From: a virus
Direction: 5' to 3' (one strand)
Virus record (IMG/VR): IMGVR_UViG_3300042308_001236
Location: 1 to 21,011 of that record
DNA: 21,011 nucleotides
Shown here: in pieces, positions 16,774-21,011 of the stretch
Layout of the letters: each line of letters opens with the position of its first letter
How positions within the stretch are numbered: the first letter of the stretch is position 1
Position numbers and translations under genes: made by a program
The notes under the pieces: model-generated
Seen by the model: the letters and a program-made list of their open reading frames with translations, nothing else
Database searches by the model: none
Told to the model about the DNA's origin: nothing

Positions 16774-18357
16774 ATGTCATATTCACAAATACAAAATAAC
16801 GAAGATACATATACTGGACCAATACCGACGGTGTTTAAATCAGTAGACGTATCGGATATCAATGTTTATCCATTCAATGTTTATAAACAATGGTACGCAT
16901 ATTCCGGAAGCCATGATTTAATAACACCATCTCAAGGAATTTATACAGACATCAATGTATTACCTATTATAGGAAGTGAATTAACATATAATGATGCTAC
17001 AAATATAGATGGCTCATTGCAATCAATAACATATTTTGGAATCGATCATTTATACTATAAACGCAAAGATACACCAGCACATACATTTGGCCCTACAAAT
17101 TTAAATGTATCATTTAAACATTTGTTTGAAACAGCATCAATTTTTTCAATATTGCAACGTAAAATTGGGGATGGCATAAAACCTGCTTCATTTAAAATAG
17201 ATAGCACAGTTTCTGGCTCATATATTAGTGATAAATTTGGAAACATTGTTGATGCATCATATGCAACCGGATCAATTATTAGCAATGTTATATTTTATGA
17301 AGGATTTAATGAATCATTCGATGCTTCTAGAAACATGTATGAATCCTCCGGAGTTACATATATACCAGGCATACCGACTACCACCGGGCAACAAAAATCT
17401 TTAGGATTAGCAGCAAAATTTGATGGTAGTGGATTTATTTCTACTGATATCAATGGCTCATATACACGAGAAACAGATTATGCTATTTCATTTTTTATTT
17501 GTAGTGCATCTGCTATAACGCCTGGTTTAATATTAACAAAAGCTAGTAGCTCTATTACTCCGTCATATCCGTTCCGCATTGAATTGGTCGGAGGTAAAAT
17601 ACATTATACTGTTGCTGGGGCAACGAATATTAAATGTTTAGTAACATCTTCAGTGTATGTTACTAGTTCATGGACACATATTGTTTGTCAAAAATCAGGC
17701 AGTGTTATTCAAATGTATGCAAACAATGCATTGCAAGGCACAGATACATCCACGTTTTTAAGTCAGCAAACCGATCCATTAATATTAACTGCAAGAATTG
17801 ACAACAAAGATACATTAAAAATTGGAGGGTATAGCACCAATAGCTCAAATCTAATAGGTTCAATTGATGAAGTTAGAATATATAATAAGCAGTTAACTTC
17901 AGGTCAACGAGCCGCATTAAATGACCGTGCAGAAGGCGGCACGGTTCTCCAAACGGCACATGTTGGGAATATTTTTACAAAGCAAGGACTTGCAGTATTA
18001 TCTTCTGCAGATTATCGAGTAAATAACATATTGCAATGTCCATATACAGCATCATATCGTAGCACAAAAACAATCTATGAATTAAATGTGCTAGTACAAT
18101 TAAATGCAGGAGATTTTAATATGTCTTCAAATATAAGTTTAACCGGCGATGATGATATAAAGTATTTGCCGTTTGTTACTGGTAGCTCATTTATGCCATA
18201 TATTACAACTATAGGATTATATGATAGTCATGGTCAATTATTAGCAGTAGGAAAATTAGCACAAGCAATTCGCAATAGGCCTGATGTCGACATGAATTTT
18301 TTGTTGCGAATAGATCTAGATTCAAAAGTAGTAAATAACATTGTAAGGGAAATATGA
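16774..18357 (+). CDS. LamG-domain virion adhesin / fibre protein
   Basis: The 527-residue product has an N-terminal phage attachment-like part (residues 1-175, including YPFNVYKQWYAYSGSHDL and LYYKRKDTPAHTFGP). A clear concanavalin A-like LamG domain (Laminin_G_3 type) covers about residues 178-385: LGLAAKFDGSGFIST, YAISFFICSAS, SSWTHIVCQKSGSVIQMYAN and GSIDEVRIYNKQLTSGQ. Such domains bind glycans, so a role in host-surface recognition is likely. Residues 476-515 (YITTIGLYDSHGQLLAVGKL...) repeat the C-terminal domain of the 15347 product and may be the part that docks to the particle. The stop overlaps the next start as ATGA. The LamG call is secure; the receptor is unknown. Confidence 0.8.
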   Translation: MSYSQIQNNEDTYTGPIPTVFKSVDVSDINVYPFNVYKQWYAYSGSHDLITPSQGIYTDINVLPIIGSELTYNDATNIDGSLQSITYFGIDHLYYKRKDTPAHTFGPTNLNVSFKHLFETASIFSILQRKIGDGIKPASFKIDSTVSGSYISDKFGNIVDASYATGSIISNVIFYEGFNESFDASRNMYESSGVTYIPGIPTTTGQQKSLGLAAKFDGSGFISTDINGSYTRETDYAISFFICSASAITPGLILTKASSSITPSYPFRIELVGGKIHYTVAGATNIKCLVTSSVYVTSSWTHIVCQKSGSVIQMYANNALQGTDTSTFLSQQTDPLILTARIDNKDTLKIGGYSTNSSNLIGSIDEVRIYNKQLTSGQRAALNDRAEGGTVLQTAHVGNIFTKQGLAVLSSADYRVNNILQCPYTASYRSTKTIYELNVLVQLNAGDFNMSSNISLTGDDDIKYLPFVTGSSFMPYITTIGLYDSHGQLLAVGKLAQAIRNRPDVDMNFLLRIDLDSKVVNNIVREI

Positions 18358-18920
18358 TAAAATTAAAACAAATTTTATCTGAAATGACTGACGCAGAAAT
18401 TCGACACCTAGGCAAAAGAATTGAAGCACAAGATTTTCGATATGTCGGCGCCGGGGACAATGCGCGCGTATACAAATTTAATAATCAAGACCTAGTTTTT
18501 AAACTAACAACTAGCACAGATGAAATTGAAGTTGCTCGGCAAATACAAAATAAAATATCTGATTATTCTACATTTATTCCGGTGTATTATGTAGGAGATT
18601 TATACGGAGGCCAAGCAAAATATACTGATGTTATTGTGATGGCAAATGCAGAAAAATTATCTGCTAATTTAAAACGAAGTATTGATCGCATAGTTGAAAA
18701 ATATAAAGTGTACGCATATGAACAAGGCGGCGAAGTTTCTATTTTTGATTTTGTAGATCAATCAGGATTAAAACGAATAGACCCGATGATTATAAATTTT
18801 ATAGAAGCATTACGATCAGATATTGAAAAATTAAATATTACGGATTTGGATCTAGATCTAGATTTTAAGTCAGATAATATAATGATATGGAATGGTAACA
18901 TGGTAATGGTTGATTGGTAA
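18354..18920 (+). CDS. Minimal protein kinase-like / phosphotransferase-fold protein
   Basis: The 188-residue protein has kinase-fold landmarks in order: glycine-loop-like GAGDNARVY (32-40), a VFK strand with candidate ATP-lysine K50, a catalytic loop LDFKSDNIMI with D170, K172 and N175 (cf. HRDLKPxNIML), and a metal-binding VMVDW with D187. It stops one residue after D187, so activation segment and C-lobe helices are absent, making it far smaller than typical kinases (about 260 aa). A repeated Leu-Asp run (DLDLDLD) precedes the catalytic Asp in place of HR. The N-terminus MIKLKQILSEM carries a hydrophobic-x-Glu site at residue 10, like T4 capsid-targeting peptides. The start overlaps the upstream gene (ATGA) and follows AAGGGA. 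Activity is plausible but unproven; a pseudokinase is the alternative. Confidence 0.7.
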   Translation: MIKLKQILSEMTDAEIRHLGKRIEAQDFRYVGAGDNARVYKFNNQDLVFKLTTSTDEIEVARQIQNKISDYSTFIPVYYVGDLYGGQAKYTDVIVMANAEKLSANLKRSIDRIVEKYKVYAYEQGGEVSIFDFVDQSGLKRIDPMIINFIEALRSDIEKLNITDLDLDLDFKSDNIMIWNGNMVMVDW

Positions 18921-18921
18921 A

Positions 18922-18933
18922 TATTTATTAAAA
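18922..18933 (+). promoter_or_regulatory. Recurrent TATTTATTAAAA element, candidate late promoter
   Basis: The element lies in the 21-base gap after the kinase-like gene, 20 bases before the ATG at 18942. It is TTTA-T-TAAA symmetric and reads AATAAATA on the minus strand. Confidence 0.36.
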
Positions 18934-18941
18934 AGTATGAT

Positions 18942-20702
18942 ATGGATAAAATATTAAATAAAATAATTAGACAGGTTGTAGTAGAAGCTACTACCGTTAA
19001 ACGTTTAACAAACCAAGTAGATAGTGATACTATTTTAAATAAACTAATTAAACAAGTTATAACAGAGGCAGCTCAGAAAGTAGTAATATCTAAACTTGAT
19101 AATAAAGTTATTGCATTAACCAGTAAATATGGTTTTGGATTTAAGATTTCAGCTAATTATCCGATTAGTCTTGATCAGGTGCGTGGAAAGATACAGACAA
19201 ACAGTCAATATGGAACAAGTTCTCCTTATAATTCATATTTAAATTATACATATTTTGTTGGCAGCAATATGCATAAAACCCCAGACAAAAAATATGTTGC
19301 TAATGTAATTATAGTAACTGCTAAAACTATGAAGTCATTTAATTCTGCAAAGTTTAATGCAGCAGTAAAGTATCTTTTAGAACCGGATAATAGCAACGCA
19401 GATGTTGTTGTTGATGGTTACGCAACAAATACAATAGGACGAAAATCCGGTGACTTAGAAGCTCAACATCACAAAGCGCGAGGTACAGCAGAGGCAGTAT
19501 ATGATTCAACAGACAAACGTACGAACATCAACCAGGGTTCAAACATAATTTTTATTGATAAAGACCCAGGCTATGCAACATTGCCCGCAGATTTAATAAC
19601 AGTATTAACAAAACAGGGAGCGCCATTAATGTCTACGAGTGGTAGTGAAGTTCCTGGATTTATGTCTGACGAAGACAATGTAGCACCAGCTGATGATACA
19701 AAAACAGATAATGGGTCTGTTACTGCTAATACTAACAAACAAGAAGTAGGCTCAGGCGAAGTTGAAAACGTAAACATCGATGGATCATCAATAAAAATGC
19801 AAACATTTACCTTTGGCATGAAAGACAACGTTGATTTAAAAATATTTCAAGATGAATTAAAAACTCAGCTAAAAGCTGGGTCAAATCTTACGCCTAACAT
19901 GAAAGCTTTTATAGCGACTGATAAAATGACAGGATATTATGGGCCATTAACTAGTAGATTAATTGTAGATCTTAAGATAATATTTAACTATACAAATAAA
20001 GACGGAAAAATTCTAGAACCTGACTTCCAGCAAACATTAATTGATAAAATGCAGTCTAAAATAAAACTAACAGAACAATTTAATTTTACTGATGATCAAT
20101 TAAAATTAATAACTAACGCACCGGTATTATTAGATCCTGTAAAAGTTGACATTAAAAAAGATGACATTAAAAAAGATGATATAATAAAAGGCGACACTGA
20201 AAAAGTTGCATTAACAAAAGCATATCAACTTTGTTTAGACGCTGCAAAAGATTTAAGAAAAATAACAACAACAAATCCACATGATTATTGGAAGAAATAC
20301 TTACGTTGGAATGGATTATCATTTAGATCAAATGCTAATGAAAATGGAATTGCATGGTTTAAATCAGCATGGAATAAAGCATGGGGCACAAAATTAGCTG
20401 CAGCAGCAAAGATACGTAATACAGCTACTCAAAAAAATATTAAAGAAATTAATCGAAGAAAAGATGATGTAATTGACATGATACGTAAAGGCGGGTCTAT
20501 GACTGTATATTTACGTATACAAAATCCATTCACAGGAGCACCTACGGATTTTAAAATTAAATGGGATTATCTGTCTGGAGTTCAAAACGCAGCATTTAAA
20601 GGAAACCCGAAAAAAACAGTTACAAACAAACAAGCTCAGGATTTTTATAATAAAAAAGGCAAATATCGTAAGCCAATTAAAAATCCAGGACTTGCTGATT
20701 AA
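18942..20702 (+). CDS. Large candidate internal/injected protein with duplicated N-terminal module
   Basis: I do not recognise this 586-residue protein as a whole. The N-terminus holds two copies of an amphipathic module, ILNKIIRQVVVEA (4-16) and ILNKLIKQVITEA (31-43), each ending in a prohead-protease-like hydrophobic-x-Glu-Ala. Residues 150-190 (VVVDGYATNTIGRKSGDLEA, HHKARGTAEAVYD) loosely resemble the OmpA-like peptidoglycan-binding core (GYA...N..L...RA.AV). Residues near 295-350 (VDLKIFQDELKTQLKAG, GYYGPLTSRLIVDLKIIF) loosely resemble a PG_binding_1 domain. A DDIKKDDIKK linker precedes a basic C-terminal part rich in Trp and Lys (DYWKKYLRWNGLSFRSNANE, WFKSAWNKAWGTKLAAAAK). Together this suggests a packaged protein acting at the cell envelope; the domain hints are weak. 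Confidence 0.55.
   Translation: MDKILNKIIRQVVVEATTVKRLTNQVDSDTILNKLIKQVITEAAQKVVISKLDNKVIALTSKYGFGFKISANYPISLDQVRGKIQTNSQYGTSSPYNSYLNYTYFVGSNMHKTPDKKYVANVIIVTAKTMKSFNSAKFNAAVKYLLEPDNSNADVVVDGYATNTIGRKSGDLEAQHHKARGTAEAVYDSTDKRTNINQGSNIIFIDKDPGYATLPADLITVLTKQGAPLMSTSGSEVPGFMSDEDNVAPADDTKTDNGSVTANTNKQEVGSGEVENVNIDGSSIKMQTFTFGMKDNVDLKIFQDELKTQLKAGSNLTPNMKAFIATDKMTGYYGPLTSRLIVDLKIIFNYTNKDGKILEPDFQQTLIDKMQSKIKLTEQFNFTDDQLKLITNAPVLLDPVKVDIKKDDIKKDDIIKGDTEKVALTKAYQLCLDAAKDLRKITTTNPHDYWKKYLRWNGLSFRSNANENGIAWFKSAWNKAWGTKLAAAAKIRNTATQKNIKEINRRKDDVIDMIRKGGSMTVYLRIQNPFTGAPTDFKIKWDYLSGVQNAAFKGNPKKTVTNKQAQDFYNKKGKYRKPIKNPGLAD
18951..19070 (+). repeat. Duplicated N-terminal coding module
   Basis: Codons 4-16 (18951-18989) and 31-43 (19032-19070) encode related 13-mers, 9 of 13 residues identical, 27 residues apart. 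The DNA has diverged more than the protein, so the duplication is old and the peptide is under selection. Confidence 0.8.
20148..20177 (+). repeat. Two 15-bp tandem repeats coding DIKKD
   Basis: GACATTAAAAAAGAT is repeated perfectly at 20148-20162 and 20163-20177, followed by a diverged third unit. It encodes a charged linker (DIKKDDIKKDDIIKGD) between the middle and C-terminal parts of the 18942 product. Confidence 0.92.
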
Positions 20703-20731: not shown

Positions 20732-21011
20732 ATGAAAAAAAATCATTTCCACAGCTCAGGCAATTCAAAACGGGCTGCTGCATTAAAATACGGTTATAAA
20801 TCTGGATTAGAACATACAGTTGCAGAACAAATAAAAACTGCAGAGTATCCATTAAATTACGAAACAGAAACACTTAATTACGTGGTACCTGAACGTAAAG
20901 CAAAATATACTCCTGATTTCATATTTACAAAACGTAATGGTCAATTAATATACATTGAAACAAAAGGCCGTTGGACTAGCATTGATAGAGCTAAAATGAA
21001 ACATGTATTAG
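20732..21011 (+). CDS. Endonuclease I / Holliday junction resolvase, T7 gp3-like (partial)
   Basis: The right window edge cuts the gene after 93 codons (T7 endonuclease I is 149 aa). The family resolves DNA branches before packaging. All catalytic positions of the PD-(D/E)XK fold are present in order: Glu27 in SGLEHTVAEQI, Glu44 in NYETE, Asp62 in YTPDF, and Glu76/Lys78 in IETKGRW. The T7 counterpart has the same SGLE, YE, YTPDF and VETKG blocks. The start ATG follows an AT-rich leader (TTATAATACAAG) that could hold its own -10-like sequence; no good ribosome site is visible. T4 uses endonuclease VII for this job, so a T7-type enzyme here is a swap. The missing part is not a truncation of the gene. 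Confidence 0.9.
   Translation, partial: MKKNHFHSSGNSKRAAALKYGYKSGLEHTVAEQIKTAEYPLNYETETLNYVVPERKAKYTPDFIFTKRNGQLIYIETKGRWTSIDRAKMKHVL

Follow-up and report, generated by a model that had tools for sequence, protein, structure and literature searches.

A putative head-targeted mini-kinase ending at the DFG-equivalent aspartate in a T4-like phage

Canonical kinases usually continue for about 100 residues after the DFG motif. In phage T7, Ser/Thr kinase activity has been proven for the ~30-kDa N-terminal domain of T7PK (PMC4858673). For the T4 head, experimental mapping of IPIII showed that targeting depends on residues 4 and 7 of its leader and processing on residues 8 and 10; the motif of the gp21 protease is L/I-x-E, and the leader alone suffices to package foreign proteins (PMC9026906). 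It is also established that Alt and the internal proteins of T4 reach the host together with the DNA (PMC9026906).

The gene described here lies in a window of 21,011 nucleotides, the whole stretch of DNA analysed (IMG/VR record IMGVR_UViG_3300042308_001236), a 21-kb viral record that is a fragment; its tail and baseplate genes (PHROG baseplate wedge matches) are those of a T4-like phage. Its relatives are carried by uncultured T4-like phages from water. The gene product, which we call a mini-kinase, is a real variant and probably a C-lobe-less, head-targeted protein in which a kinase-like fold is joined to T4-type head targeting. With moderate confidence, we read this as a T4-like phage gene for a head-targeted mini-kinase that would be packaged, cleaved and capable of phosphotransfer. 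The features on which this reading draws are collected in Table 1.

Table 1. Features of the mini-kinase locus, in window coordinates
Feature	Position	Strand	Remarks
Upstream virion structural protein, Laminin_G_3 (concanavalin A-like) domain	16774..18357	+	PHROG 8510; PF13385
ATGA overlap with upstream structural gene	18354..18357	+	start ATG shares letters with upstream TGA
Mini-kinase gene, 188 aa, D187-W188-stop end	18354..18920	+	same ends in 97/97 relatives; AlphaFold2 pLDDT 88.1
Leader MIKLKQILSE, 10 residues, T4 capsid-targeting-sequence pattern (residues 4, 7, 8, 10)	18354..18383	+	T4 IPII/IPIII register
Glycine-rich loop GAGDNARVY, residues 32-40	18447..18473	+	G34, D35, N36, Y40 invariant
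K50, beta-3 lysine	18501..18503	+	97/97
E57, alpha-C glutamate, putative partner of K50	18522..18524	+	97/97; helix 55-64 in model
Catalytic loop D170-FKSD-N175	18861..18878	+	D170, N175 97/97; K172 variable
D187-W188-stop, D-F of DFG equivalent	18912..18920	+	VIA alignments, residues 15-188, stop at DFG
ATATTTATT element, directly after kinase stop	18921..18929	+	recurs in gaps between genes
Downstream 586-aa protein, longer leader MDKILNKIIRQVVVE	18942..20702	+

Conservation and predicted fold of the mini-kinase

The ORF at 18354-18920 (+) starts MIKLKQILSEM and holds GAGDNARVY at residues 32-40, together with K50, D170, K172 and N175, and through the ATGA overlap its translation would be coupled to that of the upstream structural gene. 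A first scan of uncultured viral contigs, with a query that used C-terminal patterns, gave 287 relatives, and the 80 best went forward; since that scan relied on those patterns, it was complemented by a core-only scan in which the query was cut back to the stretch between residue 19 and about residue 159. The two combined (best 80 of 287 plus core-only) yielded 97 distinct complete proteins, and 51 of these were recovered by the core-only scan, i.e., using neither end. No relative was found among 84,980 bacterial and archaeal genomes, so these provided no clue to the host. Searches of the protein sequence against Pfam, PHROG and the PDB returned no match of note, and the Pfam kinase and APH models went unmatched. 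Profile matches to S100/myosin light chain entries in the PDB were helical and of low significance, the fold search gave them no support, and they were discarded.

All 97 relatives terminate in Asp-Trp-stop, the outcome of a search for homologues with the same end that had been proposed in the preliminary description of this DNA. The stop codon itself differs (TAA in 55, TGA in 41 and TAG in 1), L8 is encoded by five codons, residue 9 may be any of ten different amino acids, and dN/dS for five pairs of relatives was ~0.11-0.32. Based on these mixed stops and codons, the free residue 9 and the low dN/dS, it is selection on the protein that holds both of its ends. The conserved set comprises G34, D35, N36, K50, E57, D170, N175, D187 and W188, with K50, E57, D170, N175 and D187 invariant in 97/97, and the loss of K50, D170 or D187 in close homologues, raised earlier as a sign against a kinase, was seen in none. 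Position 172 varies among K, R, S and N, which disqualified K172 as a catalytic or diagnostic kinase lysine; of the originally described motif D170-x-K172-x-x-N175, the Asp and the Asn have thus held and the Lys is not diagnostic.

AlphaFold2 with 66 sequences gave a model with a pLDDT of 88.1 and a pTM of 0.84 in which the leader was the only poorly predicted part, superseding an earlier model from 21 sequences that was poor (pLDDT 67). With Foldseek, its top match in the PDB was APH(2'')-IIa (E 2.4e-5), CK2 was also matched, and kinase-fold proteins made up 50 of the 50 matches listed by VIA-align; structure matches in BFVD included further short phage kinase-like proteins. The kinase fold first suggested by a few motifs was in this way upheld, and the prediction of the single protein shows, at high confidence, a kinase N-lobe and catalytic loop. 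Alignment with PKR had a Z of 8.8 and 3.6 A over 122 residues, and as a VIA Z of ~8 is middling taken singly, the argument rests on the agreement of all rows and on the catalytic residues. The glycine loop, beta-3 Lys, alpha-C Glu, catalytic Asp, Asn and DFG-type Asp are all present and in kinase order. The VIA alignments cover residues 15-188 and end at PKR 433, TTK 665, JAK2 995 and CDK2 146, in each case one past what we take to be the DFG Asp (432, 664, 994 and 145, respectively), which places D187-W188 on the D-F of DFG and agrees with the original proposal that the protein ends exactly at the metal-binding Asp. The activation segment and the alpha-F to alpha-I helices, i.e., the ~100 residues after DFG, are missing, with the stop at Asp+1 in 97/97. 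Residues ~15-188 are, therefore, predicted by modelling to comprise a kinase N-lobe, the pre-loop helices, the catalytic loop and two strands leading to the DFG-equivalent Asp.

The leader in the mini-kinase and in other genes of the clade

Like its end, the start of the protein is kept in the relatives. M1, I2, L4, K5, L8 and E10 are invariant and residue 9 is free; the pattern MI[RKQ]LKx[LI]LxE occupies residues 1-10 in 92 of the 97, the other five being without residue 9 and reading LLE, and LxE is found in the leaders of the full set (97/97). T4 IPII and IPIII start MKTYQEFIAE (T4 record), and their register, M..[hyd]..[hyd][LI]xE, is that of the mini-kinase, with its hydrophobic residues 4 and 7, Leu 8 and Glu 10. 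In T4 IPIII, an E10D change still lets the protein be targeted but prevents its cleavage. In the 97 relatives, E10 is invariably followed by M, L, I or T. In the capsid proteins of the clade, QLVKE, QIVSE or QLISE, each followed by Ala, stands where the T4 capsid protein is cut, and by analogy their major capsid protein would be cut between Glu and Ala. Because residue 11 of the mini-kinase is M/L/I/T, and not Ala, targeting is better supported than cleavage. Residues 1-11 had been put forward as a capsid-targeting peptide removed by the prohead protease: the T4-type register bears out the targeting part, and cleavage after E10 is less sure with a hydrophobic residue or Thr next. Of the 10 records searched, 7 encoded a gp21-type (S77) prohead protease (PF03420) and 4 encoded gp23; no gp21 gene was found within the 21-kb window, a fragment. 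The literature yielded no virion proteomics or biochemistry on the mini-kinase family, and no clear proteomics paper on Flavobacterium phage immuto.

The leader is not confined to the mini-kinase. In a 160-kb relative (G001), its register opens 14 of 185 ORFs where 0.19 would be expected from interior positions, and a second count, made independently, found 14 of 151 against 0.28 expected. These proteins are little alike beyond the leader, except within one small family and where an extended leader is shared; they include phage-lysozyme, DUF5872 and DUF6934 domains, and their genes are spread over the genome. A leader-only search of cultured phages gave nothing useful. The lysozyme-domain protein of G001 (147942-148826; leader MIHLKSILSE) would be odd head cargo. 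Genes of G001 at 96407, 110124 and 117479 encode otherwise unrelated proteins with a common, longer two-site leader, LAENMRRFxTKNLxE, that contains two LxE motifs, and a reverse-strand gene at 26128 has a variant of it, LAENMLRFAPKNLDE.

Leaders also mark the gene right after the kinase: 74 of 82 such genes encode [LI]xE within residues 7-26, compared to 5-9 of 82 for interior stretches of equal length. This downstream leader is mostly 15-16 residues long and of the type M(S/K)xxLExIIRxxLxEQ, and in the window the 586-aa protein has a second, tandem leader-like repeat, DTILNKLIKQVITE, at nt 19026-19067. The slot after the kinase is variable in the relatives (e.g., L029, L043, L009, L010, L017 and L092), with 87 distinct ORFs of 60-943 aa, most of them leader-bearing, whose bodies belong mostly to one modular family with a few unrelated ones. 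A recurrent element directly behind the kinase gene had already been described, and ATATTTATT at 18921 does recur in intergenic gaps. In the form ATATTTAT(A/T), it is present in six of these (window 432, 2859, 5357, 14649, 16739 and 18921), is rare inside genes, and lies ~21-36 nt ahead of the next ATG; it is possibly a late-promoter-like element of this phage group and, at 18921, would belong to the next gene. At the ends of the window are a phage endonuclease I gene (20732-21011; PF05367) that is cut by the record end and is conserved after the kinase region in relatives, and a 139-aa ORF (11-430) whose match to the UvdE UV-endonuclease model (PF03851) is limited to the C-terminal part of that model.

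A sister family and the rival explanations

Among cultured phages, terminase comparison places Microcystis phage Mel-JY01 (56%) and Flavobacterium phage immuto (54%) nearest. A tblastn search of cultured phages with the mini-kinase gave nothing useful, and a relative in immuto emerged only from a per-genome search (E 1.1e-5). This protein, QQO92333.1, has 146 aa, is annotated as hypothetical, begins MISIYNILKE, has Val as residue 11, contains LGEGDYGAVF and ends with KMDNIMQDKTGKIKIIDV-stop. It belongs to a sister family with 21 distinct relatives in viral contigs, all with the leader register, and 19 of 19 full-length members end in Asp-Val-stop. The catalytic Asp is replaced by Ser, Leu or Arg in all complete members, and the Lys, Asn and final Asp are kept. 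The match between the two families had an hhalign probability of 96% and hmmsearch E-values of ~1e-10 to 1e-13 for full-length members. The 146-aa Immutovirus protein thus resembles the mini-kinase in its leader, in stopping at Asp+1 and in having an N-lobe that is homologous (E 1e-5 to 1e-13), but is without ~35-40 helix residues and without the catalytic Asp. Since both families keep both traits, the Asp+1 end and the leader likely predate their split, and with the catalytic Asp lost in the sister family phosphotransfer cannot be assumed for every member.

That the gene might be a truncated or decaying kinase gene, or an assembly or frameshift artefact, is suggested by the ~100 further residues that are normal beyond the point where the protein ends. 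The same end in 97/97 relatives, the different stop codons and the low dN/dS speak for a clean gene end with no frameshift, as had been judged earlier, other genes directly follow the mini-kinase gene, and we find decay or artefact hardly credible. The main rival is an injected nucleotide-binding pseudokinase, likewise head-targeted, that would hold ATP/Mg via K50, N175 and D187, perform no phosphotransfer, and serve after injection as an inhibitor, decoy or switch; T4 IPI, which is non-enzymatic, is a model for such a mode of action. The immuto-type sisters fit this, having retained the leader, Lys, Asn and final Asp with S, L or R for D170 in all complete members, as does the absence of the entire activation segment and the alpha-F to alpha-I helices. 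However, D170 and every other catalytic residue are invariant (97/97) in the window's family, conservation for which a pseudokinase has no need, and we consider this explanation unlikely. The leader could instead be some other modular N-terminal signal of this phage clade, one that docks proteins to a complex or compartment of the phage or serves as a stability tag, and the kinase would then act in the infected cell once newly made there, like T7 gp0.7. Leader-bearers with lysozyme, DUF5872 and DUF6934 domains, encoded genome-wide and not obvious head proteins, favour this idea, and so does the hydrophobic residue after E10, but the exact T4 IPII/IPIII register with a free residue between L and E, the gp21-type protease in the same phages and the [IV]xE followed by Ala at the predicted capsid-protein cleavage site speak against it, and we consider it unlikely as well.

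Counted against the head-targeted mini-kinase are residue 11, unlike the E-A of the capsid protein, the sister family without the catalytic Asp, the absence of a Pfam, PHROG or PDB sequence match, a window without gp21 and a lysozyme-domain leader-bearer as odd cargo. If that reading holds, the mini-kinase would be made late, coupled to the structural gene, and leader residues 1-10 would act like the T4 capsid-targeting sequence, binding the prohead core through L4/I7. A gp21-type protease would probably process or release it at L8-x-E10, and it would travel inside the head and reach the host together with the DNA, following T4 Alt and the internal proteins. There it would bind ATP/Mg and most likely phosphorylate a host component, with a partner or target standing in for the missing C-lobe. 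Extended further, and only tentatively, a T4-like lineage may package an active minimal kinase that ends at the metal Asp, within a clade-wide injected cargo sharing a 10-15-residue T4-type leader, with the Trp188 carboxylate adjoining the metal site and the target or partner replacing the C-lobe. If true, this would define how little kinase suffices, there being a natural family of ~146-188 aa in which all complete members found stop at the DFG Asp, and would provide a sequence rule for spotting head-packaged, host-injected proteins in uncultured T4-like genomes, where nearly all head cargo is now "hypothetical". As a relative occurs in a cultured phage, Flavobacterium phage immuto, head targeting can be put to a direct test.

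Comparison with known systems

In the non-subscription literature covered, there was no account of the mini-kinase family, of a head-targeted or packaged phage kinase or of a C-lobe-less kinase, and none of so wide a capsid-targeting leader set in uncultured T4-like phages. The mini-kinase shares its fold with APH(2''), CK2, PKR, TTK and RIO-like kinases, from the N-lobe and glycine loop through Lys/Glu and the catalytic Asp/Asn to the DFG-type Asp, and has these elements in the order found there, but it is without the C-lobe after the Asp and has no significant sequence match to them.

A parallel for the end point is T7 gp0.7, whose short forms in Aquamicrobium phage P14 and Caulobacter phage Cd1 likewise stop soon after the DFG-equivalent Asp: in T7 gp0.7 the TDP motif has its Asp at residue 213, and the relatives in P14 and Cd1 end 9 and 12 residues after this Asp, respectively. 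By analogy, gp0.7 is a working precedent for kinases that stop just past this Asp. It differs in having TDP rather than DW and in being encoded by podophage genes without the mini-kinase leader; homology by profile went undetected (hhalign of the mini-kinase against the gp0.7 family, probability 1.7%), and the sole match in this comparison was of the immuto sister to PHROG 15752 (E 0.15).

For the start of the protein, the parallel is T4 itself. IPII, IPIII and Alt have the same 10-residue leader register with L/I-x-E at 8-10, and the T4 internal head proteins are likewise diverse proteins behind a common leader in a phage with an S77 protease. Unlike in T4, the cargo here is kinase-like and a hydrophobic residue follows the Glu, and the use of the leader is far wider than T4's, with an exact register match in 14 ORFs of a single genome.
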